NCBI RefSeq assembly: GCF_002256775.1
Contig: NZ_NCII01000001.1
Span: 45,278-109,277, forward strand
Length of the DNA: 64,000 nucleotides
Reading direction: 5' to 3'
Source of the DNA: Novosphingobium sp. 17-62-19
GTDB lineage: Bacteria; Pseudomonadota; Alphaproteobacteria; Sphingomonadales; Sphingomonadaceae
Position 1 is the stretch's first letter. Each line of letters starts with the position of its first letter. Below the pieces are notes generated by a model, which ran no database searches, was not told where the DNA came from, and was given only the letters and a program-made list of their open reading frames with translations. A program made the translations under genes and the position numbers. Shown here piece after piece: positions 8,948-63,833 of this stretch.

Positions 8948-8981
8948 AATGCGCATTATTTTCTTCAATATACTCTGCAAA
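8948..8981. promoter_or_regulatory. recurring dyad, divergent MFS / BaiE-like promoter
   Basis: AATGCGCA at 8948 and TCTGCAAA at 8974 have starts exactly 26 bp apart (18-bp spacer), matching the layout seen in seven other intergenic regions. The site lies 23 bp upstream of the MFS start and 106 bp upstream of the BaiE-like start. Confidence 0.5.
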
Positions 8982-9087
8982 TCAGGCAAATCAAATCGTA
9001 AGATTGATAATATGTGATGATATTGCGGCGATTGGCCTGTGTGTATAACAGTCGTGCAACACAAATCGATTCGCTTGGGAGAGCGCT

Positions 9088-9591
9088 ATGCCCATCTCGC
9101 TTGAAGATATTTCCTCTCGCCTTGCCGCACTGGAGGACAAGGAAGCTATCCGTGCGCTCAAGGCGCGCTATCTTCGCGCCTGCGATCTCAAGCAGCCCGA
9201 TGTGGTGCGCGATTGCTTCGCATCGGGCGAAATCCGCATCGCTTATCAGAACTTCCCGGAGTTCGCCGATAGGGATGCATTTGTTGAAATATATCGCCAG
9301 ATGGGTTGTCAGCCCGGAGTTTACGACATCCACCACGCTACCAACTGGGAAATCGATCTTTCCGGCGGGGATCGGGCGACCGGCAAATGGTCGCTGAATT
9401 TCCGCACGATCCTTACCGGCCCACGCCAGATCGTGCGCCTCGCGGTGGAATATGATGACGTCTACGCCAAGGTTGATGGTCGCTGGTGGATTGTAGAGAC
9501 GGTCAGCCGCGTCACCTCGATGCTGACCGAACAGGTGGCCGAGGATGGCAGTGTAACGGTTCTGGCACTGGCTGAACCGCCTGCTGCCTGA
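9088..9591 (+). CDS. BaiE-like SnoaL dehydratase (candidate 7-alpha-hydroxysteroid dehydratase)
   Basis: A 167-residue single-domain SnoaL/NTF2 protein. Its layout follows bile-acid 7-alpha-dehydratase BaiE closely. It has an N-terminal helix (SRLAALEDKEAIRALKARY), Tyr28 and Asp33 spaced as in BaiE (Tyr30/Asp35), and a His pair at 82-83 before a WEIDL strand and an ATGKW motif. It probably eliminates water from a hydroxylated steroid, as proposed for Hsh2-type enzymes of sphingomonad bile-acid degraders. Family similarity is seen in the sequence; the exact substrate is inference. gggagag precedes the start. It is divergent from the MFS transporter and convergent with the amidohydrolase, only 2 nt away. 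Confidence 0.75.
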   Translation: MPISLEDISSRLAALEDKEAIRALKARYLRACDLKQPDVVRDCFASGEIRIAYQNFPEFADRDAFVEIYRQMGCQPGVYDIHHATNWEIDLSGGDRATGKWSLNFRTILTGPRQIVRLAVEYDDVYAKVDGRWWIVETVSRVTSMLTEQVAEDGSVTVLALAEPPAA

Positions 9592-9593
9592 GG

Positions 9594-11345
9594 TTACGCA
9601 GGCATTGGCGCAACCGGTGCCTGCTGCATTCCGCGCACCACCCGTCCGGGCCGCACATCCATAGGCTGGTCGGCCCGGCGGATCACTTCTCCGCTAACCA
9701 CTGTGGCAACATAGCCCGTAGCAGTCTGATCCAGCCTGCGCCCGCCACCTGGCAGGTCATGGCGCACCACCGGCGCGTGCAGCCGTAGCGCGTCCATGTC
9801 GATCACATTGACATCGGCCTTGTATCCGGCGCGCAGCAGTCCGCGATCGTCCAGCCCGACAACACGCGCGGGCTTTGCCGCCAGCATCTGCACCACTTCG
9901 GCCACGGACAGGCGCTCACCCGCACGGTCCCGCACCCAATATGTCAGCATGAACGTGGGATAGCTGGCATCGCAGATCGCGGCATAGTGCGCGCCACCAT
10001 CGCCTAGCCCGATCACCGTATCGGCGCGGCGCACCAGCCCGATCAGCGCATCAAGCCGCGCCTCGTGGAAATTGCCCAGCGTGTTCAGGATCATGCCGTT
10101 GCCGTCACGCTCCATCAGCGCGTCGTACGCCACGTCCTCAGGGCTGCGGCCTTGTGCGCGGGCCAGCGCGCCAATGCTCTGGTCGGCCGCCGGTTCATAC
10201 TGCGGAGGATCGCCGAACGGGAACATCCAGTCCCAGTTGCGTGTCAGCATCGCCAGCGGATGCCCCGGCTGCGGCATTTCCGAAAGCAGCTGTGCACGCA
10301 TCACCGGATCGCGCAACTGCGGCAGTTGTTCTTCCAGCGTCAGGTTGGCCAGCGGCTGATACGATGGGCACAGGCAGAACGGATGAGTGGACAGCGCCCA
10401 GCCCGAAATCATGCCGATCGGGCGTGGTAGTATCTGAGGCCAGATTTCAACGCCGCGCGCCCGCGCCTCATCCACCATCCGCAGCGGCGCATCCCATGTG
10501 TTGGGCCCGCTGTTGGCCAGCGCCAGCGTGAATGTCGCTGGACGGCCAGAGCTTTCCGCCACCGCGATCAGGCGGGTCAGTTCGTCCTCCCACGTCTCGA
10601 ACGGAGCATCGAGCACCGCCTGAAACACCCCGGTCCCGGCCTCGGCCAGCGCCCCGGTTATGGCAATCAACTCGCGCGTATCGGCGCCATAGGTCGGGAT
10701 CAGTTCGCCCGTCTTGGTACGGTGGATATTCAGCCGTGATGTGGCAAAGCCGATGGCCCCTGCATCCAGTGCCTCCCGCGCAATCGCCCGCATCTGGGCC
10801 AGATCATCGTCAGTCGCCGCCTCACGCGCGATGGCGCGCTCGCCCATCACCCACACGCGCAAGGGGCTGTGCGGCAGCAGGCAGGCCACATCGATATCGC
10901 GCGGGCGCGAAGCCAGCGCGTCGAGATACTGCGGAAACGTTTCCCAGTCCCACGGTAACCCCTGCGCCATGACCACGCCGGGAATGTCCTCCACCCCTTC
11001 CATCAGCCGGATCAGCGCCTGATGATCGGCCTTGCGGCACGGCGCAAAGCCCACACCGCAATTGCCCAGAACGGCAGTCGTTACGCCATGCGAACTGCTG
11101 GGAGAGAGCGTGTCGGACCACACCGCCTGCCCATCGTAATGCGTGTGAATATCGACAAAGCCCGGCGTCACAATGCACCCGGTGGCATCAATTTCCTCGC
11201 GCGCTGTGCCCGCGTAATGCGCGCCGACAAAGGCAATGGCATCCCCGCACAGGGCCACGTCTCCAATAAAGGGTTCCCCGCCCGATCCGTCGACGATCGT
11301 GCCACCCCTGATCAAAAGATCGGCGCAAAGGCCCTGTGCGGTCAT
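9594..11345 (-). CDS. amidohydrolase, N-acyl-D-amino-acid deacylase family (second copy)
   Basis: A 583-residue metal hydrolase distinct from, but homologous to, the one at 3521-5263. The HTH metal pair is at residues 67-69, the family cysteine in LGNCG at residue 96, and GDGGAH carries the late Asp. The C-terminal beta-sandwich ends in a Pro-rich tail. It probably hydrolyses an amide or similar bond. The link to conjugated steroids is context only. It is divergent from the SDR at 11520 across a 174-bp region that contains three copies of the recurring half-site. Confidence 0.83.
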   Translation of the reverse strand: MTAQGLCADLLIRGGTIVDGSGGEPFIGDVALCGDAIAFVGAHYAGTAREEIDATGCIVTPGFVDIHTHYDGQAVWSDTLSPSSSHGVTTAVLGNCGVGFAPCRKADHQALIRLMEGVEDIPGVVMAQGLPWDWETFPQYLDALASRPRDIDVACLLPHSPLRVWVMGERAIAREAATDDDLAQMRAIAREALDAGAIGFATSRLNIHRTKTGELIPTYGADTRELIAITGALAEAGTGVFQAVLDAPFETWEDELTRLIAVAESSGRPATFTLALANSGPNTWDAPLRMVDEARARGVEIWPQILPRPIGMISGWALSTHPFCLCPSYQPLANLTLEEQLPQLRDPVMRAQLLSEMPQPGHPLAMLTRNWDWMFPFGDPPQYEPAADQSIGALARAQGRSPEDVAYDALMERDGNGMILNTLGNFHEARLDALIGLVRRADTVIGLGDGGAHYAAICDASYPTFMLTYWVRDRAGERLSVAEVVQMLAAKPARVVGLDDRGLLRAGYKADVNVIDMDALRLHAPVVRHDLPGGGRRLDQTATGYVATVVSGEVIRRADQPMDVRPGRVVRGMQQAPVAPMPA

Positions 11346-11428
11346 CGTCTCTCTCCACTGTTTCGGTGGACGGTACTGGATCGTTCGGCTTGAAGCAAGC
11401 GCAATGCCAGATCGCGCCGCTCAGAAAA

Positions 11429-11499
11429 TCCGCATATAATAGCTATTAAGCGTCATTGACCGCCGTTTGCGTTATGCAATACCGGTAGAGTTACGAAAC
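11429..11499. promoter_or_regulatory. three recurring half-sites before SDR / amidohydrolase
   Basis: TCCGCATA at 11429, TTTGCGTT at 11466 and TACGAAAC at 11492 are spaced 37 bp and 26 bp apart. This combines both offsets that recur in this window. The last arm ends 20 bp before the SDR start codon, so binding there could block transcription or translation initiation. Confidence 0.55.
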
Positions 11500-11519
11500 A
11501 CCGGAGAGGATTCGCAGGC

Positions 11520-12275
11520 ATGATCGATTATGGCCTTCACGGCAAAGTGGCGCTCGTCACCGGCGCAAGCGGCGGCATTGGTCGCGCGGCATCACTCGTC
11601 TTCGCGCGGTCGGGCGCAAGCGTGCTTGTTTGCGACGTGAACGAGGCAGGCGGCGCTGAAACGGTCGCCATGATCGAAGCGGCAGGGGGCAAGGCGGCGT
11701 TCCAGCGCTGCGACGTGTCAAAATCTGACGAGGTGAAGGCGATGGTCGCCGCTGCTGTCTCCACTTTCGGCGGACTTGATTGCGCGTTCAACAATGCGGG
11801 TATCAACCGCCTTGGCGACGACGAATACGACGACGCGATCTGGGAACGCAACATGGGCATCAACCTGTCGGGCGTGATGCGGTGTATGCGTGAAGAGGCC
11901 GAAGTGATGGTTGCGCGTGGCGGCGGGGCCATCGTGAACACTGCGTCGATCAACGGGATCGTCGGAAACGGTGGACAGCCCGCCTATGTCGCGGCGAAGC
12001 ATGGCGTCGTCGGCCTCGCTCGGCACGGCGCGCTGCGTTGGGCGCAGGCGGGCATTCGCGTAAACGCGGTGTGCCCCGGTGTGATCGAAACGCCGATGAC
12101 CGCGCCACTCATCGCCAGCCCCGAAATGAAGAAGGTTATCGATGCGATGACGCCGATGGGCCGCATGGGCACCGCGGAAGAAATTGCCGAAGCCGTCGTC
12201 TGGCTCTGCTCACCCGCCGCCAGCTTCGTTACCGGTCACGCTATGGTCGTCGATGGCGGCGCGACAGCGGTTTGA
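11520..12275 (+). CDS. classical SDR oxidoreductase
   Basis: A 251-residue NAD(P)-dependent dehydrogenase. Its motifs are TGASGGIG (cofactor), NNAG, catalytic Ser in NTASI, YVAAK, and a C-terminal VDGGAT. An Asp at the end of the second strand (VCDVN) suggests NAD preference. It is likely a hydroxysteroid or hydroxyacyl-CoA dehydrogenase. ggagagga precedes the start. It stands alone between the dyad region and a hairpin that separates it from the convergent esterase. Confidence 0.85.
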   Translation: MIDYGLHGKVALVTGASGGIGRAASLVFARSGASVLVCDVNEAGGAETVAMIEAAGGKAAFQRCDVSKSDEVKAMVAAAVSTFGGLDCAFNNAGINRLGDDEYDDAIWERNMGINLSGVMRCMREEAEVMVARGGGAIVNTASINGIVGNGGQPAYVAAKHGVVGLARHGALRWAQAGIRVNAVCPGVIETPMTAPLIASPEMKKVIDAMTPMGRMGTAEEIAEAVVWLCSPAASFVTGHAMVVDGGATAV

Positions 12276-12282
12276 AAATCGG

Positions 12283-12312
12283 ACCGGGCAGCATCAACAT
12301 TTGCTGCCCGGT
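12283..12312. terminator. hairpin between convergent SDR and esterase genes
   Basis: A perfect 11-bp inverted repeat (ACCGGGCAGCA / TGCTGCCCGGT) with an 8-nt loop lies in the 49-bp convergent gap. There is no long T-run on either side, so it is a plausible but weak bidirectional terminator. Confidence 0.55.
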
Positions 12313-12324
12313 TAAGGTGACTTG

Positions 12325-13251
12325 TCAGCCCAGCGCCGCTTTCAGCTTTGCCCCCGCCCGCTCGATATAGGGCATGGCATCGGGCACCGCTTCGAACATC
12401 GAGAAGAAGCCGTGAATCATGCCGGGAGCCTCTTCGCTATCAACCGCAACCCCCGCCGCCGCCAAGGCATCGGCATAGGCCAGCCCCTCATCGCGCAACG
12501 GGTCGTATTGCGCTACCAGAACGGTAGCTGACGGCAAACCGGCCAGATTATCGTGGCGCAACACCGCAGTGTGAGGATGCGGAGCATTCACGTCGTCCAC
12601 ATAGTGCGCCCAGAACCACTGCATCATCACGGTCGACAGGAAATAGGTGCCACCACCATTTGCTGTATAGGAATCCCGTTCAAAATCCGCATCCGCCACC
12701 GGATAGATCAGCAACTGATGTGCCAGCTTCGGCCCGGCCTCATCGCGCGCGCGGATCGCCACGGCAGCGGCAAGGTTGCCCCCGGCACTGTCTCCCGCCA
12801 CAGCAAGGCGCGAAGGATCAATGCCTAGTTCGGCGGCATGAGCCACCGCCCACAACAGCGCATCATAGCAATCATCCAGCGGGCCGGGGAACTTCGTTTC
12901 CGGTGCAAGCCGGTAGTCCACTGCCAGCACGGCCGCGCCGCTCGCCCGCGCCAGTGCGCGCGCAGTGGCATCGTGCGATTCGAGATCGCCGATCACCCAG
13001 CCGCCGCCGTGATAGAACAGCACCAGCGCCGGATTTTCCCCTGCGCCCTCAGGAACATAGAACCGCGAGCCAATGGTCCGCCCCGGCAGGTCGAGCGCGA
13101 TGTCACGCACATGCGCCACTGCGGGCGGCGGCCCCATCTGCATCGGTTTGTTCAGATCGCGCAGCGCTTGCGGCGTGATTGTGGCATAATCGACTGGCGG
13201 CATCTGCGCAAAATAGCCCAGCAGCGCCTCGACCTGAGGGTTAAGCGTCAT
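12325..13251 (-). CDS. alpha/beta hydrolase, hormone-sensitive-lipase family
   Basis: A 308-residue esterase. It has the HGGGW oxyanion motif at residues 81-85, nucleophile Ser155 in GDSAGG, and later Asp (YDPLRDEG) and His (MIHGFF) completing the triad. It probably hydrolyses a carboxylic ester or lactone, for example the product of a Baeyer-Villiger step or an esterified steroid. That link is inference. It is the last gene of a minus-strand operon (16289-12325) and starts 29 nt after the extended SDR. Confidence 0.88.
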   Translation of the reverse strand: MTLNPQVEALLGYFAQMPPVDYATITPQALRDLNKPMQMGPPPAVAHVRDIALDLPGRTIGSRFYVPEGAGENPALVLFYHGGGWVIGDLESHDATARALARASGAAVLAVDYRLAPETKFPGPLDDCYDALLWAVAHAAELGIDPSRLAVAGDSAGGNLAAAVAIRARDEAGPKLAHQLLIYPVADADFERDSYTANGGGTYFLSTVMMQWFWAHYVDDVNAPHPHTAVLRHDNLAGLPSATVLVAQYDPLRDEGLAYADALAAAGVAVDSEEAPGMIHGFFSMFEAVPDAMPYIERAGAKLKAALG

Positions 13252-13280
13252 CGTATCTCTCCCGATTTAGCCGAACTGCC

Positions 13281-14183
13281 TTATCCAAATTGGGCTGCAA
13301 TTTCTGCCACAGCCGCCGCCACATCGCGACGACGATAGCCCAACAGCGCCGTTTCGCCAGCATCGGGTTCATAACTGATCGTGTTGCCGCGCCCTTGCGG
13401 GATCGCGATGTCGGGCAGCAGCAGCAATTCCTCGTCGCGCGCCTCCAGCACCACGTCGCTGCCAACGGCATCAAAGAACAGCTGGAAATAGTCCCGGAAC
13501 GTGAGGTTTTCATCGCCCACCAGATAGGCCTTGCCCGGCTCGCCCCGCAACAGCGCGCCTTCGATGGCTTCGGACAGCGATTGGAACGACATGAAGTTGG
13601 TGCCACCCGTCGGCGCAAAGAACGGGATCGGAATATTGCCCTTGGCCCACTGCACATAAGGATCGAAAATCGCGCTCGGCAGGCCGGGCACTGTGCCGAC
13701 CATGAAGGGCGCATTTACGCTCACCACGTCAAACCCGGGCGCGCCCTCGGCTCGTGCGCCTTCGCACGCGGCAAGGCGTGACTGGATATAGACATTGCCT
13801 GCAACCAGTTCTGGCGCGGCCTGCGGATAGAAGCTGCCAAGCTGGACCGCACGGGCAACGCCAGCCTCACGCGCGGCGGCAAAGAACGCGGGCAGGGCAA
13901 CATGGTTGGCCTTGTGCAGCCACGCGCCGAAATCTTCGCCCTGTGGAACGTGGCGCGGATCGTTGCCTGCCGCAAACACCATCCAGTCGAACCCGCGCAA
14001 CCGATCGGGCGTGAAATCGCCCGCCACATAATCGCCCTGAAGGAACCCAAGCGTGGTCAGCGCCGTGCCTTCGGGCGCACCCGCCCCACGCCCGGTGATC
14101 GTCACATCATGGCCCTGTGCCGCCAGATGCAGCGCGGCATGGCCGCCCAGCGCGCCAGTGCCGCCGACTACGAGAACTTTCAT
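13281..14183 (-). CDS. NAD-dependent epimerase/dehydratase-like extended SDR
   Basis: A 300-residue Rossmann protein with N-terminal GGTGALGG, the pattern of extended or atypical SDRs such as epimerases and NmrA-like proteins. No clear YxxxK is seen at the usual place; the nearest Tyr pair is in GSFYPQ and NVYIQSR. It could reduce or isomerise an intermediate or only bind NAD(P). The start at 14183 follows a tctcct-complement ribosome site. It is separated by 2 nt from the upstream SDR, which indicates one operon. Confidence 0.75.
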   Translation of the reverse strand: MKVLVVGGTGALGGHAALHLAAQGHDVTITGRGAGAPEGTALTTLGFLQGDYVAGDFTPDRLRGFDWMVFAAGNDPRHVPQGEDFGAWLHKANHVALPAFFAAAREAGVARAVQLGSFYPQAAPELVAGNVYIQSRLAACEGARAEGAPGFDVVSVNAPFMVGTVPGLPSAIFDPYVQWAKGNIPIPFFAPTGGTNFMSFQSLSEAIEGALLRGEPGKAYLVGDENLTFRDYFQLFFDAVGSDVVLEARDEELLLLPDIAIPQGRGNTISYEPDAGETALLGYRRRDVAAAVAEIAAQFG

Positions 14184-14185
14184 CG

Positions 14186-16289: not shown

Positions 16290-16341
16290 CGGATGCGGAT
16301 CCTCTTGATGCCAATGAATCGGCGTTGATGTATTTATTGTC

Positions 16342-25756: not shown

Positions 25757-25790
25757 TTTGCGCTGTAGATTAGCGTATGATCTACGAGTC
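25757..25790. promoter_or_regulatory. recurring dyad in divergent promoter
   Basis: TTTGCGCT at 25757 and TACGAGTC at 25783 have starts exactly 26 bp apart. The site lies 25 bp before the unknown gene and 63 bp before the isomerase-like gene. The second arm keeps TACG but diverges afterwards. Confidence 0.45.
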
Positions 25791-29436: not shown

Positions 29437-29470
29437 CATTCGTAATTTACGATTGCATTGAATACGCAAA
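29437..29470. promoter_or_regulatory. recurring dyad between flavoprotein and steroid operon
   Basis: CATTCGTA at 29437 and TACGCAAA at 29463 have starts exactly 26 bp apart. An extra perfect 11-bp palindrome CGTAATTTACG overlaps the left arm (29441-29451). This is the only intergenic region upstream of the 17-kb catabolic operon, so the site probably governs it. Confidence 0.6.
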
Positions 29471-43318: not shown

Positions 43319-43320
43319 CG

Positions 43321-46974: not shown

Positions 46975-47742
46975 ATGCAGCGTTTTGAAGGCAAAGTCGC
47001 CCTTATCACTGGCGCGGCATCGGGCATTGGCCGTGCGGCGGCGATCCGCTTTGCGCAGGAAGGTGCGCGAGTATTCTGCGCCGATCTCAACCTTGTCGGC
47101 GCGCAAGCAGTGACGGCCGAAATTGGCGGCAATGCAGGCGCAGTGCAGGTGGATGTGGCCAGTTACGCCAGCAATCAGGCGATGGTCGCCCATGTGATGG
47201 AACACGCGGGCCAACTCGATATCGCCTTCCTCAACGCCGGGCTATATGGCGCGGCGGATGGGTTGGACACCGTGGACGAGGCGCTGTTCGACACGCTGAT
47301 TGCGGTGAACCTCAAAGGCCCCTTCAACGGGATCAAGGCCGTGCAACCGGTCATCGCACAGGGCGGCGCGGTCATCGTTACCGCATCGGCAGCAGGCGTG
47401 ATCGGACACCCGGCCAATCCCGCCTACAGCGCGGCCAAGCACGGGGTGGTCGGGCTGGTGAAATCCTGCGTCGATGCTTTTGCCGCGCGCGGCGCGCGGA
47501 TCAACGCGCTTTGCCCCGGCGGCGTGGAAACCCCGCTGATCGGTGCGGCAGATGTTGCGATGGTCGATCCGCAAGACCTGCCGCGTGTAGCCTTGCGCGG
47601 CATGGGGCAGGCGCAGCATGTGGCCGAAGTGGCGCTGTGGCTGGCGAGCCCGGCTGCGGGTTTCATCACGGGGCAAGCGCAAGTGCTGGATGCCGCGCTG
47701 CTATCGACGTTCGCGCCGGTGATGCTGCCGGTCGGGCCTTAG
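46975..47742 (+). CDS. classical SDR oxidoreductase, last gene of operon
   Basis: A 255-residue SDR. Motifs: TGAASGIG, Asp in CADLN (NAD-type), LNAG in place of NNAG, Ser in TASAAG and YSAAK. The C-terminus lacks the usual VDGG (VLDAALLSTF). ggagagag precedes the ATG at 46975. Its stop overlaps the stop of the convergent Lrp gene by 4 bp, so the long operon has no separate terminator sequence here. The role is probably hydroxyacyl or hydroxysteroid oxidation. Confidence 0.84.
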   Translation: MQRFEGKVALITGAASGIGRAAAIRFAQEGARVFCADLNLVGAQAVTAEIGGNAGAVQVDVASYASNQAMVAHVMEHAGQLDIAFLNAGLYGAADGLDTVDEALFDTLIAVNLKGPFNGIKAVQPVIAQGGAVIVTASAAGVIGHPANPAYSAAKHGVVGLVKSCVDAFAARGARINALCPGGVETPLIGAADVAMVDPQDLPRVALRGMGQAQHVAEVALWLASPAAGFITGQAQVLDAALLSTFAPVMLPVGP

Positions 47743-48278
47743 GCTGGCGCGGTATCGCCCAAGGACGATTGCAAATCCGCCACTGTCGCAATGGGCGCGA
47801 TGGCGGCGTTGTATTTGATCGATTGCAGCACCAATTCGCTATCAGCCTCGCGGACGCCATCAAGCGCAACCACGCGGTTCATCACAGCGGCAGCGTCTTC
47901 AAGACTGGGCAGGATGCACACCGCCACAAGACGCGGCGCGGCATTGGCATCATAAAGCGCACTGACCTGCGGCATGGCGAGCAGACCTTCGCGCACGGAA
48001 TCGAGCTTTCCGTTGGCACACTTCACCGTGATGAACATCATGTGCTGCCCGATCTCACCGGGTGTGCCGCTGCTATCGCGGGTGCGGTCAATGTCCAGAA
48101 TGGGTACGAGCTTCAGCAGCCCGGCACTTTGCAAGCGTTTCACCCGGCCCCGCACAGTGCCTTCGGTCACGCCCAGATCGGTGGCGATTTTGCGGAACGA
48201 CAGGCGCGCATCCTGCGCCAGCATCACCGCAATATCGCGGTCAAGCTGATCGGTGGTGGGGAATTCGGGCGTATCCAT
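47739..48278 (-). CDS. Lrp/AsnC-family regulator, second of a tandem pair
   Basis: A 179-residue transcription factor. The N-terminal winged helix (ARLSFRKIATDLGVTEGTVRGRVKRLQ) is followed by a RAM ligand-binding domain (MMFITVKC, then LPSLEDAAAVMNRV). It is closely related in its DNA helix to the regulator at 53311-53799 (both GVTEGTVRGRxKRLQ), so they may read similar sites. The ATG at 48278 lies 5 nt after the stop of the upstream Lrp gene. Lrp proteins bind as dimers to octamers over AT-rich phased sites. Confidence 0.87.
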   Translation of the reverse strand: MDTPEFPTTDQLDRDIAVMLAQDARLSFRKIATDLGVTEGTVRGRVKRLQSAGLLKLVPILDIDRTRDSSGTPGEIGQHMMFITVKCANGKLDSVREGLLAMPQVSALYDANAAPRLVAVCILPSLEDAAAVMNRVVALDGVREADSELVLQSIKYNAAIAPIATVADLQSSLGDTAPA

Positions 48279-48283
48279 CGGCA

Positions 48284-48784
48284 CTACGTTCCGAGCGGGC
48301 CAACGGTGGGGACATAGCGGTAGACGTTGTTGATCAGCTCAACATCCACATCGTCCACACCCGGAATATCAGCGGTAGCCTGCCGCACTGCCTCCAGCAT
48401 TTCGCGCGCATTGCGGAAGGCATAGAGGCATGACACCGGGTAGCGGCCCGATGTGATGTGGACAGACAGCACTTCTTCGCGCTGCGCCAGTTGGTGCGCC
48501 ACATCTATCGGCGGGCGGCCAGTTACCTGCAGGCGTATCCGCGCCACCAGACGATAGCCGTGGATACGATGATCAGCCACAGCCACCACGCGCATCAGGC
48601 CCGCTGCGTCCATCGCGCGGATGCGGTTGGAAACCAGATTGCCGGACAGGCCAAGTTCTTCGCCGATGGTGGTGCTTTGCGCTCGTCCATCGCGCATCAG
48701 CACGTCAACAATGCGGCGGTCGGTATCGTCGAGCGATGTGCCTTTCAAGCGGCGTTGCGGCTTGTCTTCGCTCAAAATCGCCAT
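48284..48784 (-). CDS. Lrp/AsnC-family regulator, first of a tandem pair
   Basis: A 166-residue regulator with a winged helix (GRAQSTTIGEELGLSGNLVSNRIRAMD) and a RAM domain (YRLVARIRLQVTG, ITSGRYPVSCLY). The DNA-recognition helix differs from its partner's, which suggests a mixed oligomer or different targets. It has the same two-gene arrangement as 53311-54275. There is a 74-bp gap to the dehydrogenase stop at 48859, containing CTGCG...CGCAG. Confidence 0.87.
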   Translation of the reverse strand: MAILSEDKPQRRLKGTSLDDTDRRIVDVLMRDGRAQSTTIGEELGLSGNLVSNRIRAMDAAGLMRVVAVADHRIHGYRLVARIRLQVTGRPPIDVAHQLAQREEVLSVHITSGRYPVSCLYAFRNAREMLEAVRQATADIPGVDDVDVELINNVYRYVPTVGPLGT

Positions 48785-50884: not shown

Positions 50885-50918
50885 AATGCGTAATATAAAG
50901 CAATATAAAATACGTAAA
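50885..50918. promoter_or_regulatory. recurring dyad before SDR-fadE30 operon
   Basis: AATGCGTA at 50885 and TACGTAAA at 50911 have starts exactly 26 bp apart in an AT-rich stretch 64 bp upstream of the SDR start. This is one of the two best matches to the dyad in the window. Confidence 0.6.
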
Positions 50919-53248: not shown

Positions 53249-53282
53249 TTTGCGCTATCGTATATCTACAATTCTACGCAAA
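53249..53282. promoter_or_regulatory. recurring dyad before flavin reductase operon
   Basis: TTTGCGCT at 53249 and TACGCAAA at 53275 have starts exactly 26 bp apart, 56 bp upstream of the TTG start of the operon flavin reductase-SnoaL-OYE. Confidence 0.6.
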
Positions 53283-53310: not shown

Positions 53311-53799
53311 TTAATCGTCGTCGGCGACAACTTCTGGCTTGGTGATCTTCGCCATGCGGGCGTTGTATTTTACTGTCTTCACTGCGATTGACGTTTCAAC
53401 GTGATGCACACCATTGACGGCAAGGATCTTGTCCGATGCGAGTTCGACGAGTGCGTCGAGATCGTCGATCAGGCACATTGCGGTGATGTTGAACTGGCCC
53501 ATCGTGATCAGCACGGCGTTGACGCTGGGAATATCGGAAATGACCTGCGCCACTTCGCGTACCCGATCAACCTCTGCCTGTACGTTGATGAACGCCAGGC
53601 GTGCCTGCTTTTCGATCTGGAAGCCGGTGATGGCGGTAAAGGCGATCAGCCCGTCCTGTTGCAGCCGCTTGATGCGCCCGCGCACGGTACCTTCGGTCAC
53701 GCCGAGTTCGGCGGCAATGCGCCGGTTGGAAACACGCGCATCGCGGCCGAGCATATCGACCAGTTGGGCGTCGAGCGTGTCTAGCTGGGGGGCTGCCAC
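53311..53799 (-). CDS. Lrp/AsnC-family regulator, second of a tandem pair
   Basis: A 162-residue regulator. The winged helix ARVSNRRIAAELGVTEGTVRGRIKRLQ is followed by a RAM domain (ARLAFINVQAE, VLITMGQFNITAMCLI). The recognition helix is nearly identical to that of the protein at 47739. It starts with GTG at 53799, 2 nt after the stop of its upstream partner. The acidic C-terminus (VADDD) is unusual. It may control the adjacent operon at 53193, whose promoter lies directly downstream. Confidence 0.86.
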   Translation of the reverse strand: MAAPQLDTLDAQLVDMLGRDARVSNRRIAAELGVTEGTVRGRIKRLQQDGLIAFTAITGFQIEKQARLAFINVQAEVDRVREVAQVISDIPSVNAVLITMGQFNITAMCLIDDLDALVELASDKILAVNGVHHVETSIAVKTVKYNARMAKITKPEVVADDD

Positions 53800-53801: not shown

Positions 53802-54275
53802 TCAGGCCTTTCCTTCAATCGGGGCGACGTCGAACTTGTACTTGATGATATCGACGACGATCGCTGGCGTGAGCGTGCGGATGCCGTGGACACCCGAAAG
53901 CTTGTCGAGCAGGAAATCAGACAGATCGTCGAAATCGTGCAGTGCTACCAGCATGTCGATGTCATATCCGCCCGTCACCATATGCGCGGCGACCACTTCG
54001 GGCAGCGCGGCCAGCTCGTTTGCTACATCAGAGGCGGGGCGGCCATCGACCGATACCGAAATCCGCAGCAGCACGTTGAAGCCGTGTGCGGAAAAGTCTG
54101 ACACCGCCACCACGCGCAATTGGTTGGCATCTTCCATGCGGCGGATGCGCATGGACACAGTTGTCGCGGTCAGCCCCAGCTTTTCGGCGATCTGCTGGTT
54201 GTTGGCACGGCCATTGGCACGCAGTTCGCGGATGATCGAGACATCCGTCGCATCGAAGCTGAAAACCTGACTCAT
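53802..54275 (-). CDS. Lrp/AsnC-family regulator, first of a tandem pair
   Basis: A 157-residue regulator with a winged helix (GRANNQQIAEKLGLTATTVSMRIRRME) and a RAM domain (VLLRISVSVDGRPASDVANEL, MVTGGYDIDMLVAL). It resembles the first gene of the other tandem pair (48284), both having a GRP...DVA segment, so the pair appears to be a duplicated two-gene unit. Divergent from the SDR at 54541 across 265 bp that hold three half-sites. gcgagg precedes the start. Confidence 0.87.
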   Translation of the reverse strand: MSQVFSFDATDVSIIRELRANGRANNQQIAEKLGLTATTVSMRIRRMEDANQLRVVAVSDFSAHGFNVLLRISVSVDGRPASDVANELAALPEVVAAHMVTGGYDIDMLVALHDFDDLSDFLLDKLSGVHGIRTLTPAIVVDIIKYKFDVAPIEGKA

Positions 54276-54448: not shown

Positions 54449-54519
54449 AATGCGAAATAGTATAACAGTGATTATACGTAAAATTGTTATTAATGTGTGT
54501 ATATAGCATATTTTGCGTA
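54449..54519. promoter_or_regulatory. three recurring half-sites in Lrp / SDR divergent promoter
   Basis: AATGCGAA at 54449, TACGTAAA at 54475 and TTTGCGTA at 54512 are spaced 26 and 37 bp. The last arm lies 22 bp before the SDR start codon. Upstream, 54276-54440 shows no gene. Confidence 0.6.
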
Positions 54520-56882: not shown

Positions 56883-56903
56883 ACCGCCAGCCTGGTCTTT
56901 TGG

Positions 56904-56935
56904 GGGCTGCGGCGGCGCTTACTCTGCCGCAGCCC
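56904..56935. terminator. hairpin between convergent BVMO and Coq4-like genes
   Basis: GGGCTGCGGC (56904-56913) and GCCGCAGCCC (56926-56935) form a perfect 10-bp stem preceded by a short cttttg. It overlaps the last codons of the Coq4-like gene. It is a plausible bidirectional terminator. Confidence 0.5.
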
Positions 56936-57773: not shown

Positions 57774-57793
57774 CGGTTCATCCTCTTGTTTCA

Positions 57794-57816
57794 CCGAACG
57801 GTATCGAACCGTTCGG
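57794..57816. promoter_or_regulatory. perfect 9-bp inverted repeat, probable TetR operator
   Basis: CCGAACGGT and ACCGTTCGG flank a 5-bp centre ATCGA (23 bp in all). It lies 21 bp upstream of the Coq4-like start and 40 bp upstream of the TetR start, the usual place for an operator that controls both divergent genes. The regulator binding is inference. Confidence 0.75.
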
Positions 57817-57855
57817 CAAATTGCAAGGCCGTGGTGACCTGCTATAGCCCGATGC

Positions 57856-59115
57856 ATGATCGAGGCTTCTGCCGTCCAACCTGATACGCAAACACCGGTG
57901 CCGCCCCGCGTCGCGCACCTGCTGGACACTGCCCGCACAGCATTCGTGGCTGAAGGCTATGACCGCGTGAGCATCGACGCCATCGCGCGCGAGGCGGGCG
58001 TCAGCAAGGAGACGATCTACCGCCACTTCGTGGATAAGCAGGCGCTGTTCCGCGCCGCGCTTGAAGACATGGCCAACCGCTTCGTCGCCCGCGCACAGGC
58101 GCTCCACCGCGCAGCTTTGCCGCCGGGGCAGGAACTAGACGCCCTCGCTCGGACTATCCTTGATGCGGCGGTGGGCGGCGGTCTGCTCAGCCCGCTGTGG
58201 CTGGCGGCAGGGCTGGGCAGCCGAATGCCCGATTTCGCCGCCGAACTTCAGCAGGCGCAAGCCGCCCGGATGGAGCCGGTACGTGAGGCGATTGAGGGGA
58301 TTGCCCGCGCACAGGGTGTGCTGCGGGACATCCCTATCGATGATGCGCTGGATTTCGGGTCGCTGGCGGTTGAAGGCTCAACATTGCTGATGGGTTTCGA
58401 TCCCCCGCCGCCCGAACGTCGCACGGCGCTTGCCGCACGGGTTGCCGCGCTCTTCGGGCAGGGCGTGCTTGCCATGCCCGCCACCCCGGCCCTGTTGGAT
58501 CCCGAACCCGAACACACTGCCGGACCGGCACCCACGCGCGCGCCACATCTGCGTCGTCTGATCGATATTGCTGCGCAGCATTTCCTGAGCGACGGCTTTG
58601 AAGCAGCCAGCCTCGGCGTGATCGGCGCCGAAGCGAAAGTCGGACGTGGCACACTCTACCGCCACTTCGCCCACAAGGCAGGTCTGTTCGATGCCGTTCT
58701 GCGCGATCTGGCCACACAGTTGGCCAACCAGGCCACGCCGCCTGCACTGGTCGGCGATGGCATACCGGAAACGCTCGCGCACTACTTTGGCGCGGCAACC
58801 GCACATCTCACCGCCCCTGTGTCCATTGCGCTGCACCGCGCCGCCATTTCAGCCTCGCGCCGCGATCCGGCGCTGGCGCGCTTTGTTCATGATACAGTGC
58901 GCGAACCATGGATCGGCCCACTGTCGGTCTGGATTGCCCAGCGCACAGGCCACGCCGATTCGCGCTGGCTGGCACGGCAGGGCATCGTGCTTGCCATGCA
59001 GGGCAATCGCGCCATCGCATCGGGCCATGGTCCAGCGCCCCAAGCGCTCGATCGCCATGCCGTGCGCACCGCACGTTTGTTCCTCAACGGGCTTGCTGAC
59101 GGAAACGCAGCATAA
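57856..59115 (+). CDS. fused double-domain TetR-type regulator
   Basis: A 419-residue protein made of two consecutive TetR units. The first DNA-binding domain is at about residues 18-66 (EGYDRVSIDAIAREAGVSKETIYRHF) and is followed by a helical ligand domain. A Pro-rich linker lies near 210-228. The second DNA-binding domain is at about 231-282 (DGFEAASLGVIGAEAKVGRGTLYRHF) and has its own helical domain. Normal TetR regulators are about 200 residues and dimerise. Here one chain could make an intramolecular pseudo-dimer. It is divergent from the Coq4-like gene, with a perfect operator-like palindrome between them. Confidence 0.87.
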   Translation: MIEASAVQPDTQTPVPPRVAHLLDTARTAFVAEGYDRVSIDAIAREAGVSKETIYRHFVDKQALFRAALEDMANRFVARAQALHRAALPPGQELDALARTILDAAVGGGLLSPLWLAAGLGSRMPDFAAELQQAQAARMEPVREAIEGIARAQGVLRDIPIDDALDFGSLAVEGSTLLMGFDPPPPERRTALAARVAALFGQGVLAMPATPALLDPEPEHTAGPAPTRAPHLRRLIDIAAQHFLSDGFEAASLGVIGAEAKVGRGTLYRHFAHKAGLFDAVLRDLATQLANQATPPALVGDGIPETLAHYFGAATAHLTAPVSIALHRAAISASRRDPALARFVHDTVREPWIGPLSVWIAQRTGHADSRWLARQGIVLAMQGNRAIASGHGPAPQALDRHAVRTARLFLNGLADGNAA

Positions 59116-59256
59116 CGCAGCAGCGTCAAAAAGGCGCAAGCTTATGGGGCGCTTGCAGACGATCTCATTGAAATCGAACACTTGGCGCTGTCACCAGCAT
59201 TTTGCCTGCCCGCCCATTGGTGAAAGGCCATATGGTCAACTAAGTCAGCCATAAAT

Positions 59257-59301
59257 TACGCAAGAGTGTATCATATTTATCCATTGCACTAAGTTTGCGT
59301 A
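59257..59301. promoter_or_regulatory. paired half-sites in TonB receptor promoter region
   Basis: The 359-bp gap 59116-59474 holds no gene. TACGCAAG at 59257 and TTTGCGTA at 59294 are 37 bp apart in its AT-rich part. The remaining 170 bp form a long untranslated leader before the receptor, ending in ggaggga. The left end (59116-59160) has no clear terminator. Confidence 0.5.
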
Positions 59302-59474
59302 GTTGATACTAGCTCTCCAACGACAAATAGAATCCGGGAAAAGAGGTTGCGTCTGCGTTCAGCGGACGGTCCAGCATCGTCTGGACACTGATTTATCAGG
59401 CGATCCCTTGTGCCTCGGCTTCGCACGAACCTGGTCAGGTCGTGTTGCGGGTTTGAATTTGGAGGGAGATAAAA

Positions 59475-62057
59475 ATGTCTGCAGGGATCACCATGAAATC
59501 ACGCTGGCCGCGCCGCTGCGGTGCCGCGCTGCTCGCCGGGGTGGCGTTTGGCGTCGTTGCCATGCCGCAAGCCGCTTTTGCTGCACAAAATGCTGCGCCC
59601 GATCAGGCATCGGAAGCTGAACAGCCCAGCAGCACGGAAATCATCGTCACCGCCAACCGCCGCGAAGAGCGCGCGCAGGACGTGCCGATCTCGATCACCG
59701 CTATCAGCGCCGAAAGCATCCGCGAACGCGGGCTGACGCAGCTTCAGGACTTGCAGGCCTCGGTGCCTTCGTTGGTCGTCGGCCCCAATGGCCAGGCCTC
59801 GCGCGATGTGATGTCGCCTTCGATCCGCGGGCAGAGCGCCTCTTTCCAGGGCTCGCCCGCCGTCGTCGTCTACATGAACGAAGTGCCGCTGCTTTCATCG
59901 ATCACGCTCTCGGGCCAGGGCGGGCCCGGCACCTTCGTCGATCTCACCAACATTCAGGTTCTGGCCGGTGCGCAGGGCACACTGTTCGGACGGAACACCA
60001 CAGGCGGCGCGATCCTGCTCACGCCGGCCAAGCCGACCGATGCACTTGAGGGGTATGCTCAGGCCGGCTTTGGCAATTACGGGCTGGTCGAAACCGAAGC
60101 CGTTCTCAACATTCCCGTCTCGGACAGGGTCCGACTGCGTCTGGTTGGCGCATCGCGCGATCGCAACGGGTTCACCTATGACACGAACTGGAACAAGGAT
60201 CGCGACGATCAGCACTGGCGCATGGCGCGGGTCGGTCTATGGATCGAACCGGTCGAAGGCGTAACGAACTACACGCTGGCCTATTACGGCACGTCGCACA
60301 GCAACGGCACCGGCTCGATCGCCAAGGACTTCAACACCAACTACTTCATCGGTCTGGCAAGGCGTCCGGTCCCGATCGGCGGTGGGGTGACCGTGCCACT
60401 CGGCGCGATCTCGCCAAACTTCAATTTCTGCGGCGCGGGCACCGGCCCTGCCGATTGCAGCCTCTATACCAATCTGATTGCCGATCAGGAAAAGCGCGGC
60501 ATCCGCAAGACCGCGCACGGCCTCGACAGTTTTGCCAAGCTCGAATCCTGGAGCATCAGCAATACGACCGATATCGAACTGTCCAGCACGCTGACTCTGC
60601 GCAATATCTTCAGCTATTCGGAACTCAGGTCGGATTATGCAAACGATCAGGACGGAACGACCGTGCCGATCTATGACAACGGCAACACCGAGTTGAGCCG
60701 GACCGCGCCGCGTGACTGGTACAAGCAGGTAACCGAGGAACTGCAGGTTCAGGGAACCGGGCTGAACGACAAGCTGACCTACACGGTCGGCGGTTTCTAC
60801 TTCAAGCAAAGCCCTCGCGGCACGATGCGCTACTTTTCCACCAACGTCTGCGCGCGGCCGACACTGGCAGGATGCGGGATCGGGCAGAGTGAAATCGGCA
60901 TCACCAACGAATCGAAGGCCCTCTATGCGCAAGGCTCGCTTGATTTCGGCGCGTTTTCGCCTTCGCTTGATCGGCTGCGTCTGACCGCCGGGTATCGCTA
61001 TACCTGGGATACTGTCGGAGGTACGGCAACTGCATGGAACTTCACGCCGCTGCCCGGTGGCGGTCAGTTCGTAAGCTCGTGCTCGTGGAAGTCCAATCCG
61101 AACCCGAGCCAATCCATCGCCGATCCGCGCAACACCTGCCTGTTCGGCGCAGAACTCAAAAGCTCGTCGCCCAACTGGACGATCGGCCTCGACTATCGCC
61201 CGAACGACAACATCATGGTCTATGGCAAGGCCACGCGCGGCTACAAGGCTGGCGGTTTCAACACCTTTGCCGTGTTTGATTCCACCCGCACCTTCGGCCC
61301 GGAAACGGTCACCGATTATGAACTCGGCTTCAAAAGCGATTTCAACGCAGGTGGGATGCGCGGGCGCTTCAACGTCAATGGCTTCTGGCTGGATTACAAG
61401 AATATCCAGCGCGCAGCGGGCGATTTCAACCGCGCTACGGGAGGTAATGGCGCTGTGACCTTGAACAACGCGTCGGCCACGATCAAAGGCGTTGAAGTCG
61501 AAGCCATGATCCAGCCGACCGAAAACATCGAACTCGGCGGCAACTACAGCCACCTCAATGCCAAGTACAAATCCTTCGTGTTCGACTCAAGCTCGGGCGT
61601 CTGGGATTGCACCGCACAGTCGATCACCTCGCCAAAGGCCTTTGCCGGGGCGGACATGACCTGCCGTCCACTGCAATATCTCTCGCCAAACATTGTCTCG
61701 GTCTATGGCCGGTTCAGCCTGCCGATGGCCGACGATGTGGGCAAGCTGAGCCTGCTGCTCAGCTACAACTGGACCGATGCGCAGCCTACCGCACCGTTCT
61801 CTACCGAGTTCTTCCCCGATGGCACGGTGAACGAGCCAGGCGTATTGCTGCCAAGCTATGGCCTGCTCAACGCCACGATTGACTGGAAGGGCGTCCTTGG
61901 CTCCCCTGTCGATCTCAGCTTGTTTGCCACCAACATCACCAAGAAGAACTACATCATCTCGAACACCGGCATCTATCAGACCATCGGTGCGCAGAGCGTG
62001 ATCTACGGTGAGCCGCGCATGTTCGGCCTGCGCCTGCGCTACAGCTTCGGCAACTGA
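59475..62057 (+). CDS. TonB-dependent outer-membrane receptor
   Basis: A complete 860-residue receptor. It has a signal peptide (residues about 1-36, ending AAFAAQ), a TonB-box-like EIIVTANRREER near residue 55, a plug domain with IRGQSASFQGSP and GAQGTLFGRNTTGGA, a 22-strand-type barrel and a C-terminal LRLRYSFGN ending in an aromatic-rich strand. It is likely to import a steroid or sterol conjugate. It differs from the receptor at 1-2401, so the cluster has two uptake systems. ATG at 59493 is an alternative start with its own aggg. A strong terminator follows. Confidence 0.92.
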   Translation: MSAGITMKSRWPRRCGAALLAGVAFGVVAMPQAAFAAQNAAPDQASEAEQPSSTEIIVTANRREERAQDVPISITAISAESIRERGLTQLQDLQASVPSLVVGPNGQASRDVMSPSIRGQSASFQGSPAVVVYMNEVPLLSSITLSGQGGPGTFVDLTNIQVLAGAQGTLFGRNTTGGAILLTPAKPTDALEGYAQAGFGNYGLVETEAVLNIPVSDRVRLRLVGASRDRNGFTYDTNWNKDRDDQHWRMARVGLWIEPVEGVTNYTLAYYGTSHSNGTGSIAKDFNTNYFIGLARRPVPIGGGVTVPLGAISPNFNFCGAGTGPADCSLYTNLIADQEKRGIRKTAHGLDSFAKLESWSISNTTDIELSSTLTLRNIFSYSELRSDYANDQDGTTVPIYDNGNTELSRTAPRDWYKQVTEELQVQGTGLNDKLTYTVGGFYFKQSPRGTMRYFSTNVCARPTLAGCGIGQSEIGITNESKALYAQGSLDFGAFSPSLDRLRLTAGYRYTWDTVGGTATAWNFTPLPGGGQFVSSCSWKSNPNPSQSIADPRNTCLFGAELKSSSPNWTIGLDYRPNDNIMVYGKATRGYKAGGFNTFAVFDSTRTFGPETVTDYELGFKSDFNAGGMRGRFNVNGFWLDYKNIQRAAGDFNRATGGNGAVTLNNASATIKGVEVEAMIQPTENIELGGNYSHLNAKYKSFVFDSSSGVWDCTAQSITSPKAFAGADMTCRPLQYLSPNIVSVYGRFSLPMADDVGKLSLLLSYNWTDAQPTAPFSTEFFPDGTVNEPGVLLPSYGLLNATIDWKGVLGSPVDLSLFATNITKKNYIISNTGIYQTIGAQSVIYGEPRMFGLRLRYSFGN

Positions 62058-62082
62058 CCGGTGCTGCGGCCATCTGACTGAG

Positions 62083-62115
62083 AAAAAGGCCGGGCGTGAA
62101 ACCCCGGCCTTTTTT
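62083..62115 (+). terminator. intrinsic terminator after TonB receptor
   Basis: The arms AAAAAGGCCGGG and CCCGGCCTTTTT pair perfectly over 12 bp around an 8-nt loop, and the right arm runs into a T-tract. This is the clearest rho-independent terminator in the window. The start codon of the next gene is 25 bp downstream. Confidence 0.9.
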
Positions 62116-62139
62116 GCAACTGAATGGAGAGGATCTGGC

Positions 62140-62937
62140 ATGAGCAGGCAACTTGAAGGGCGCGCAGTCGTCATCACCGGCGCAGCTGATGGCATCGGAC
62201 AGGGCATCGCGCGCCGCTTTGCCAAGGAAGGCGCCAGCGTGATCGTGGCGGATTATGACGCAGAGCGCGGCCAGCAGGTTGCCGATGAATTGCAGGCTCT
62301 TGGCGCGCAGGCCGCTTTCATCCGCTGCGATGTGTCCTTGCGCAATGATGTGTTCGGCGCGGTCGATCTGTGCGTGGAGCGGTTCGGTTCGGTCGATATT
62401 CTCGTCAACAACGCCTATCGCGGCGAGGGGCCGGTGCGCATTGAGCGCAAGACCGACGAACGCTTCGATGATGCGCTGAAGATGTGCCTCTATGCCACCA
62501 AGTGGGCGATGGAGCGCGCGCTGCCGCACATGAAGGCAAAGGGCTGGGGCCGCGTCATCAACATGGCCTCGCTCAACGGCGTCAACGCGCACATGGGCAG
62601 CGCGGACTATAACGTGGCCAAGGAAGCCGTGCGCGCTTACTCCCGCACCGCCGCGCGCGAGTGGGCACCTTACGGCATATGCGTGAACGTGATCTGCCCT
62701 GCTGCTATCTCAGCCGCTTACCGCCGCTTTGCCGAAATCGCCCCTGATGTTGCAGCGGCTAGCGCGGCGGCCAATCCGATGGGCCGCATGGGCGATCCTG
62801 AAAGCGATATCGGCGGCGTGGCGGCATTTCTGGCGAGCGAGGATGCGCGCTATCTGACCGGCAATACCTTGTTTGCCGATGGCGGTGGGCACATCAACGG
62901 CGTGCCGTGGACACCGGATCTTGGGCCTGAAGAATAA
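62140..62937 (+). CDS. classical SDR oxidoreductase
   Basis: A 265-residue SDR. Motifs: TGAADGIG, Asp in VADYD (NAD-type), NNAY in place of NNAG, Ser in NMASLNG, YNVAK and FADGGGHINGVPW. ggagagg precedes the start. It follows the receptor terminator by only 25 bp, so it may depend on read-through or have a promoter within that gap. It is convergent with the SDR at 62991. Confidence 0.84.
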   Translation: MSRQLEGRAVVITGAADGIGQGIARRFAKEGASVIVADYDAERGQQVADELQALGAQAAFIRCDVSLRNDVFGAVDLCVERFGSVDILVNNAYRGEGPVRIERKTDERFDDALKMCLYATKWAMERALPHMKAKGWGRVINMASLNGVNAHMGSADYNVAKEAVRAYSRTAAREWAPYGICVNVICPAAISAAYRRFAEIAPDVAAASAAANPMGRMGDPESDIGGVAAFLASEDARYLTGNTLFADGGGHINGVPWTPDLGPEE

Positions 62938-62945
62938 GCGTTCGG

Positions 62946-62985
62946 GGGACTACCGGTCGGCCCAGTGAGGCCGACCGGTAGTCCC
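62946..62985. terminator. perfect 17-bp hairpin between convergent SDR genes
   Basis: GGGACTACCGGTCGGCC and GGCCGACCGGTAGTCCC are perfect complements with a 6-nt loop, filling the 53-bp convergent gap. There is no T-run, but the stem is long and symmetrical and probably stops transcription from both sides. Confidence 0.7.
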
Positions 62986-62990
62986 GATTA

Positions 62991-63740
62991 TCAGAACAGG
63001 CGCGCTTGGCCGCCATCCACCATCAGCGTCTGTCCCGTCACGTAACCCGCTGAATCGCTGGCAAGAAATACCGCTGCTGCGCCAATATCCGTCTCGCAAT
63101 CGCCAATCCGGCGCATCGGCACTTTGGCGATGTGATCGGCGTAGGCATCGGGGAAGTGCTGCTTCCAGATCTCCACGCCCGGCGAATTGGCAAACGGGCA
63201 GATGATGTTCACGCGCACGCCCAGCGCGCCCCATTCCACCGCCGCCGTCTTGGACAAGGACCGGATCGCCTCTTTCGCCGCGCCATAGGACGCCTGCGTG
63301 GCCATCCCCTGAATGCCCGCGCCGCTGCCAAAATTGATGACCGATCCTTGTGTTTCAACAAGATGCGGCTGTGCGGCTTGCATCAGCAGGAACGTGGCCC
63401 AGAACCCGGTCCCGAAGGCCAGGTCCATCGCTTCGGTCGTCGTGTCCATCAGCATCAGTTGCTGCGATGCCTGCGCCGCGTTGACCAGCACATCAAGCCG
63501 CCCGAATCGGCGCACCGCTTCGTCCACGATGCCAGGCAGGGCGGCGCGGTCCATCAGGTCCACCGCCATGAATGCCACTTCGCCGAATGCACCAAGCTCC
63601 TGCGCGGTCGCTTCGCCAAGGTCCGCTTCGCGGTCCACGATCAGGACCTTTGCTCCGGCTTTGACAAATGCGGCTGCCACACCCTTGGCCACGCCACGCG
63701 CGCCTCCGGTGACGATGGCGGCTTTTCCGGCAAGTTGCAT
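62991..63740 (-). CDS. SDR oxidoreductase
   Basis: A 249-residue SDR. Motifs: TGGARGVAKG, Asp in IVDRE, VNAAQ in place of NNAG, Ser in NFGSGAG, YGAAK and MVDGGQARLF. The layout resembles the SDR at 20286-21047 (both xNAQ, GGQAxxx end). gggagag precedes the ATG at 63740. The promoter region holds three recurring half-sites. Confidence 0.84.
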   Translation of the reverse strand: MQLAGKAAIVTGGARGVAKGVAAAFVKAGAKVLIVDREADLGEATAQELGAFGEVAFMAVDLMDRAALPGIVDEAVRRFGRLDVLVNAAQASQQLMLMDTTTEAMDLAFGTGFWATFLLMQAAQPHLVETQGSVINFGSGAGIQGMATQASYGAAKEAIRSLSKTAAVEWGALGVRVNIICPFANSPGVEIWKQHFPDAYADHIAKVPMRRIGDCETDIGAAAVFLASDSAGYVTGQTLMVDGGQARLF

Positions 63741-63761
63741 GTGAGACTCTCCCGATTATTT

Positions 63762-63833
63762 AATGCGCTAACTATGTGGTTATAAAATACGTAAAGCAAT
63801 GCATAATTGGTGATTCTGCATCATATTTGCGTA
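63762..63833. promoter_or_regulatory. three recurring half-sites before terminal SDR
   Basis: AATGCGCT at 63762, TACGTAAA at 63788 and TTTGCGTA at 63826 are spaced 26 and 38 bp, repeating the order seen at 54449-54519. No gene is visible from 63834 to the window end on either strand, except possible parts of a gene beyond it. Confidence 0.6.

Follow-up and report, generated by a model that had tools for sequence, protein, structure and literature searches.

A 34-bp dyad as the probable operator of a steroid-catabolism regulon in Novosphingobium, and a tandem Lrp/AsnC pair as its most likely reader

The regulators described for bacterial steroid catabolism include KstR and KstR2, which are of the TetR type, the LuxR-type TeiR (PMC8399759, in excerpt) and, in addition, EdcR, and none of them is linked here to the element described below. 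How bile-acid degradation is regulated in Proteobacteria is said to be still largely unknown (PMC8399759, in excerpt), and no regulatory gene was found near the testosterone cluster of Novosphingobium tardaugens (PMC6895838, in excerpt). The DNA analyzed here is a stretch of 64,000 nucleotides from Novosphingobium sp. 17-62-19 (contig NZ_NCII01000001.1, positions 45,278 to 109,277), referred to as the window, which carries genes that fit steroid catabolism, a recurrent 34-bp dyad, and two tandem pairs of genes of the Lrp/AsnC family of transcription regulators, LrpB-LrpA and the diverged LrpD-LrpC.

The closest description in print is that of two contiguous Lrp/AsnC genes (NCHOL11_RS15865 and RS15860) in the bile-salt side-chain cluster of Sphingobium sp. 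Chol11 (PMC12882949, in excerpt), which, likened by description, are probably the same kind of pair as LrpB-LrpA; the excerpt names no operator or regulon for them and speaks of amino-acid metabolism. In Caenibius tardaugens, the side-chain cluster reportedly carries a TetR gene at the place of these Lrp genes. Among the listed matches in open-licence papers, no operator for a tandem Lrp pair was found and nothing to the point on heteromeric Lrp operators, and PMC12175502 yielded no regulator words. As far as this search reached, what is new is the operator, its regulon and the link to the pair, while the tandem genes themselves are already in print for Chol11. Members of the family such as FL11 (2E1C), Pyrococcus furiosus LrpA (1I1G), and Escherichia coli Lrp (2GQQ) combine a helix-turn-helix (HTH) with a RAM domain, as do LrpA, LrpB, and LrpC. 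Lrp dimers recognize imperfect repeats of 13–17 bp that are degenerate, clustered two or three helical turns apart and hard to predict in nature (PMC2995911, in excerpt). The dyad shares the AT-rich centre of such sites and differs from them, as they are described there, in being a single 34-bp element with well-kept arms 26 bp apart that goes with a conserved two-gene pair; one imperfect inverted repeat of 13–17 bp per dimer does not describe it, and the proteins are of the Lrp/AsnC family all the same. The FL11-DM1 hetero-octamer of Pyrococcus horikoshii (PMC2995911, in excerpt) provides an in vitro precedent for mixed Lrp assemblies, although DM1 is a stand-alone RAM protein, whereas LrpA and LrpB both have an HTH.

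The dyad is real, and it is probably the operator of a steroid-catabolism regulon bound by the LrpB-LrpA pair, a binding that we infer from sequence. That the pair acts as a heteromer and that it represses, both of which we infer as well, are less sure than the operator and the Lrp pair. With a defined operator and a candidate regulator pair, regulation of steroid catabolism becomes directly testable and the regulon readable from sequence, giving a testable answer to how sphingomonads switch on steroid breakdown, with the pair as the most likely reader. The dyad and pair could serve as a part of a steroid biosensor and, if the proposal is true, the Lrp/AsnC family gains a two-gene form that is conserved and whose operator is unusually long and specific.

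The operator can be written as TTTGCGTA-N18-TACGCAAA, a 34-bp dyad in which two 8-bp arms flank an 18-bp gap; its symmetrised consensus is TTTGCGTA followed by R and, more weakly, by Y, the centre is AT-rich and otherwise unconserved, and in relatives it is often a perfect palindrome. This consensus was drawn from 73 distinct cores matching at ≥14/16 positions, a choice that inflates the arm scores, which were collapsed to 61 at ≥28/34 identity, sites lying <100 bp from the end of a locus being omitted. A first-pass annotation had reported eight such dyads in the window with arm starts exactly 26 bp apart, and all eight strings are present at that offset (Table 1). The fixed offset holds more widely: in 484 kb of DNA from the window, its own genome and relatives, the last picked because dyads were present, a gap of 18 gave 52 matches at ≥13/16 and any other gap from 8 to 30 gave five at most, and in 17 stretches, mostly with diverged pairs, the figures were 24 and five at most. 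To avoid judging the window by its own consensus, a scoring matrix was trained solely on sites from other genomes, 57 after collapsing. The top seven positions of the 64-kb window were all among the reported eight, and 25757, the remaining one, ranked tenth; five sites rate as strong, 63762 as moderate and 8948 as marginal, with 25757 no better than chance, so that of the eight sites originally counted six or seven stand as good ones. Positions scoring ≥15, ≥12, ≥10, and ≥8 numbered 5, 6, 8, and 9 in the window, against means of 0.05, 0.23, 0.47, and 0.9 in 60 Markov controls of 64 kb each, the best score in any of which was 19.7, reached in one. In reversed sequence there were no matches of ≥20 compared with 72 in 50 stretches from relatives (920 kb, many of which supplied training sites). 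Equal frequency in control sequence, named beforehand as a refutation of the claim, was therefore not seen. The sites had also been described as intergenic throughout; 25757, 29437, and 50885 lie within over-long calls of open reading frames, and yet all three are upstream of likely starts.

A genome-wide scan of the kind proposed with the original eight sites revealed further sites on three other contigs, C103, C41, and C62. In the whole genome the exact pattern WWTGCGNW-N18-TACGNAAA occurs six times and its backward counterpart not at all, and all matches with up to one mismatch fall on these three contigs or on that of the window; with two mismatches allowed, the count of 32 is near that of the backward control (28). 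By matrix score, C103 carries five sites (15.6 to 29.6), C41 one (26.8) and C62 one (13.8), and these contigs carry genes for TonB receptors and genes of the SDR, OYE, and acyl-CoA dehydrogenase types. In 397 genomes of the family the exact pattern was found at 106 distinct places in 56 genomes. Conservation in related sphingomonads, on which the claim had been made to depend, is seen at orthologous promoters, with that of the KstD-like gene as the exception. A dyad lies just 3′ of lrpA at 19 of 30 loci, the own one included (reversed control, 1/30), and upstream of the HsaA-like gene at 18 of 26 (control, 0/26), including one on a contig whose title reads Gammaproteobacteria. Pairwise identities at the lrpA-3′ and HsaA-like sites are 0.80 and 0.83 in the arms and 0.30 and 0.34 in the spacers. 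The sites behind these values were selected on their arms, by a matrix whose training set included some of these loci, which builds in part of the arm identity and makes the comparison of counts with reversed controls the fairer one. Five relatives have the 11466 layout, TTGACC included, at their orthologous SDR gene (69–76% protein identity to the window gene). The HsaA-like and lrpA-3′ tests were chosen after the KstD-like promoter had failed, which is a form of selection, while the 11466 SDR gene emerged from a check.

The notion that one regulator unites the scattered operons is supported, and co-occurrence favours Lrp among the Lrp, XRE, and TetR candidates originally named, although the one regulator may be two related ones since the window holds two Lrp pairs. 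Among the 397 family genomes, the motif (≥14/16) and LrpA (≥57% identity) were both present in 24, the motif alone in 11, LrpA alone in 7 and neither in 355. In all, 31 of these genomes, the own one included, have a close LrpA at this identity, for which 30 loci were returned, and for the seven genomes with LrpA and no motif at that threshold, sites of ≥14 were found in targeted stretches of six (weak in G189). A KstD-like gene (≥63% identity) occurs in 40 genomes, 27 with a close LrpA, 12 with a diverged tandem pair and one (G296) with neither, and 10 of the 12 diverged-pair genomes have a dyad of ≥14 in the stretches fetched, part of them selected because of a motif match. The converse approach began from the dyad. 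In one collection of 84,980 species genomes, the perfect dyad was found in 77 stretches, and 63 genomes were then searched, a count that omits eight loci in genomes already searched and six matching searched family genomes (G050, G185, G324, G327, and two of G387), all of which have LrpA. An LrpA homologue (E ≤ 1e-25) was present in 22 of the 63 (7/9, 15/50, and 0/4 by batch) compared with 1 of 298 genomes of the phylum other than the own. Titled sphingomonads accounted for 13/16, against 37/397 in the family sample at the same threshold, Hellea and other Caulobacterales for 6/7, those titled “Gammaproteobacteria” for 2/3 and “Pseudomonadota” for 1/1. The remaining 36, including members of named gammaproteobacterial genera such as Methylomonas, Pseudomonas, and Gilliamella, had none (0/36), and their perfect dyads are probably chance matches. 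Ten genomes chosen on the motif alone (20 stretches) gave the LrpB-LrpA pair in five. In 18 groups of relatives LrpA and LrpB were each found in 16, a figure inflated by the retrieval of part of these groups around Lrp or KstD-like matches.

As to how the system might work, the regulon would extend from the window to as many as three further contigs. LrpA-type subunits would read the two identical arms by way of their conserved recognition helix, while LrpB-type partners would touch the unconserved, AT-rich DNA and probably have a part in effector sensing. An arm offset of 26 bp exceeds the site of a single ordinary Lrp dimer, so the dyad may hold two heterodimers joined as a tetramer, or some larger assembly. 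At a core promoter, such as that at 11466, the complex would block RNA polymerase, and a steroid-derived metabolite, perhaps an acyl-CoA, would alter the assembly and lift the block. Repression is suggested because the dyad seems to cover the core promoter at some promoters. TTGAC occurs at the exact offset of −9 on 6 of 122 site strands, compared with a rate of about 0.19 at each position. This layout, shared by 11466, would put the −10 element in the centre of the dyad and the second arm at the start site. Since five of the six sites and 11466 represent one orthologous SDR promoter, the peak amounts to two independent promoters at most; the kept layout is itself informative. A Shine-Dalgarno sequence and start follow within 250 nt at 60 of 61 sites and within 70 nt at 61% of them, compared with 19% of random positions. 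Both this nearness to starts and the TTGAC layout would fit repression by occlusion. A simple scan for sigma-70 promoters around the sites yielded five matches of ≥10/12 at five different offsets, and only the TTGAC offset stood out.

Lrp proteins are capable of both activation and repression, and activation at most dyads is possible, if somewhat doubtful. At 50885, 54449, and 1268 of C103, a TTGACA follows the dyad in the direction of reading, so that activation is as plausible there as repression, and the few independent promoters behind the TTGAC peak point the same way. Against this stand the 11466 layout kept in orthologues, which would set the dyad over the core promoter, and the proximity of the sites to starts.

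All four Lrp proteins of the window match the AsnC-type winged HTH model (PF13404, N-terminal) over its curated cut-off, and LrpA, LrpB, and LrpC also match the C-terminal RAM model (PF01037), for which LrpD gave no match at 1e-5. The listed matches of all four to the NCBIfam equivalogs Lrp, AsnC, LysM, LrpA, and ChrS are below cut-off (LrpA reaches 64.1 of 180 bits against the LysM model), and the solved structures matched by LrpA and LrpB are named as Lrp/AsnC or general transcription regulators. The B-type gene lies directly upstream of the A-type gene at 30/30 close loci, in 12/12 diverged genomes and in 11/11 distant pairs inspected. In a 60-protein tree, the A types occupy one side of a branch and so do the B types (91/80 and 95/92), LrpC and LrpD being placed on very long, unsure branches. 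The recognition helix EGT(V/I)R(G/S/A)R is kept in all 47 A-type rows and in 13 rows of a distant set (LrpA and LrpC are in both). Because this helix is near-invariant, while those of the B type are variable and three other Lrp proteins of the own genome that were compared lack it, the A-type subunit is indicated as the reader of the arms, and as LrpC shares the helix, the LrpD-LrpC pair may use the same operator. A second copy of LrpB, 83% identical to that of the window, is found at about 4749–5216 of C103 (L026), where no adjacent LrpA was found. Tentatively, and at distinctly lower confidence than the operator itself, LrpA and LrpB could form an obligate heteromer, in which LrpA would read the arms and LrpB would be partner and sensor and two heterodimers of which occupy the 34-bp operator, as a widespread steroid-sensing master regulator of steroid catabolism in Proteobacteria, ancient enough to be common to sphingomonads, Hellea, and some Gammaproteobacteria.

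LrpA might instead be the regulator alone, as a homo-oligomer, with LrpB regulating other targets, which we consider rather unlikely. The symmetry of the dyad and the invariance of A-type helices only would suit such an arrangement, as would the lone LrpB copy on C103, whereas the constant B-A gene order and the persistence of both lineages together in the tree argue against it. One of the genomes chosen by their dyad (G431) gave a single match, which adjoins a contig end.

Several observations count against the LrpB-LrpA pair as the reader of a conserved operator. The dyad of the KstD-like promoter is conserved at 1 of 30 loci, that of the own genome, and 11 of the 30 have no dyad of ≥14 just 3′ of lrpA. 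One genome (G253) has a pair and no dyad near it, two others (G057 and G206) have pairs and no dyad in the stretch fetched, and the pair was absent from the motif-chosen stretches of the other five of the ten genomes. Conversely, G296 (about 230 contigs) has a KstD-like gene and a dyad and no LrpA, and Croceicoccus mobilis (L185/G403) has a perfect dyad and no pair. The high identity of the arms is partly built in, as the sites were picked by arm match, and an offset of 26 bp is 2.5 helical turns rather than two or three, as given for sites of this family (PMC2995911, in excerpt). Finally, the motif tracks the KstD-like gene (both in 28 genomes, the motif without the gene in 7, the gene without the motif in 12) just as closely as it does LrpA, and because of this equally good correlation co-occurrence alone cannot separate an Lrp regulator from genes that travel with steroid islands.

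The dyad might instead be the operator of another regulator, such as a double-TetR protein or one encoded elsewhere, with the Lrp pair merely travelling along. Steroid genes of Actinobacteria are under TetR control by KstR (PMC8399759, in excerpt), and dyad genomes without the pair, though few, exist. Nevertheless, this is improbable: genomes of Hellea and Gammaproteobacteria that were selected only for their dyad contain the pair, and the diverged pairs retain both the A-type helix and the same dyad. The double-TetR candidate was rejected, as it had no match in the stretches of the 18 groups of relatives (about half of them fetched around Lrp or KstD-like matches) or of the 10 motif-chosen genomes. 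The protein in question, encoded at 57856–59115 of the window, is one chain with two TetR HTH stretches, like the double-TetR architecture of Mce3R (PMC11667970, in excerpt). Also rejected was an XRE regulator of the ScfR/PrpR type, which is associated with TTTGC boxes, no XRE protein being present among the 40 open reading frames of the window, a subset of all, that were scanned with Pfam.

It is very improbable that the tandem genes encode an enzyme of the sirohaem-decarboxylase type. AhbA/AhbB are a precedent for a two-gene AsnC-like heteromer that is an enzyme, in this case of haem synthesis (PMC4145669, in excerpt), but both the Pfam profile and the gene neighbourhood are different here: the regulator HTH model is matched by the window proteins and the RAM model by three of the four, at 1e-5 all Pfam models matched were of the regulator type, and the scanned neighbours are of the steroid type, with no haem gene among the window proteins scanned. 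That the dyads arose by chance or belong to a dispersed repeat, as 25757 and most two-mismatch matches taken singly might suggest, is next to negligible and already contradicted by the spacing, the controls and the recurrence at orthologous promoters with unrelated spacers.

Table 1. Dyads, putative third half-sites and Lrp/AsnC genes of the window (position 1 is its first nucleotide).
Feature	Coordinates	Strand	Matrix score	Remarks
Dyad, marginal	8948–8981		10.8	23 nt upstream of MFS transporter start (ATG ~8924, −)
Dyad, strong	11466–11499		22.9	20 nt upstream of SDR start (ATG 11520, +); TTGACC at 11456–11461
Reported dyad, chance-like	25757–25790		7.2	24 nt upstream of possible start 25732 (−)
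Dyad, strong	29437–29470		23.9	Between KstD-like flavoprotein gene (−, start ~29340) and divergent long + operon
LrpC	47739–48284	−		A-like member of second pair; EGTVRGR helix kept
LrpD	48284–48784	−		B-like member of second, diverged pair
Dyad, strong	50885–50918		24.9	Upstream of SDR gene (ATG ~50821, −), then acyl-CoA dehydrogenase and LrpD-LrpC pair
Dyad, strong	53249–53282		24.9	Just 3′ of lrpA, upstream of flavin reductase/SnoaL/OYE genes (−)
LrpA	53311–53799	−		Lrp/AsnC regulator, conserved EGT(V/I)RxR recognition helix; second gene of pair; proposed reader of arms
LrpB	53802–54275	−		Lrp/AsnC regulator, HTH and RAM; first gene of tandem pair
Dyad	54449–54482		18.4	Between lrpB (−) and divergent SDR gene (+, ATG ~54541)
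Third half-site TTTGCGTA	54512–54519	+		50 bp from centre of 54449 dyad
Dyad, moderate	63762–63795		14.0	21 nt upstream of SDR start (ATG 63740, −); exact-pattern match
Third half-site TTTGCGTA	63826–63833	+		51 bp from centre of 63762 dyad

The genes of the window fit steroid catabolism, with a FadD3-family ligase and a thiolase that both exceed their cut-offs and HsaC-like and IpdE2-like proteins that fall short of theirs, in addition to SDRs, acyl-CoA dehydrogenases, an OYE, and SnoaL-like proteins. The long operon on the forward strand beyond the 29437 dyad includes genes for an SDR, an HsaC-like dioxygenase, thiolases, and FadD3. The KstD-like gene is over cut-off solely for a general FAD-binding subfamily and the HsaA-like gene encodes a PF08028 protein, and because only these matches support them both names are loose.

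At 5 of 71 sites, an additional, third half-site lies 50 or 51 bp away from the centre of the dyad in one orientation, compared with about 0.08 expected from the background rate, for positions that were picked after looking. Two of these half-sites are perfect and accompany weaker dyads, 54449 and 63762; the SDR proteins encoded downstream of these two dyads share only 29% identity. The signal is suggestive only, hinting at a larger wrapped assembly at some promoters, where the third half-site would lie about six helical turns from the first arm.

Among minor observations, two weak matches with one good arm each, at 59231 (7.1) and 59294 (5.8), lie upstream of the TonB receptor gene at 59475 of the window. 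The dyad of C41 (L027) precedes a gene of 176 residues (9448–9978) that has no Pfam or NCBIfam match. The dyads at 6624 of C103 (L026) and at 29437 of the window are very alike, spacer included, while their genes differ (HsaA-like and KstD-like, respectively), as if a promoter had been copied.

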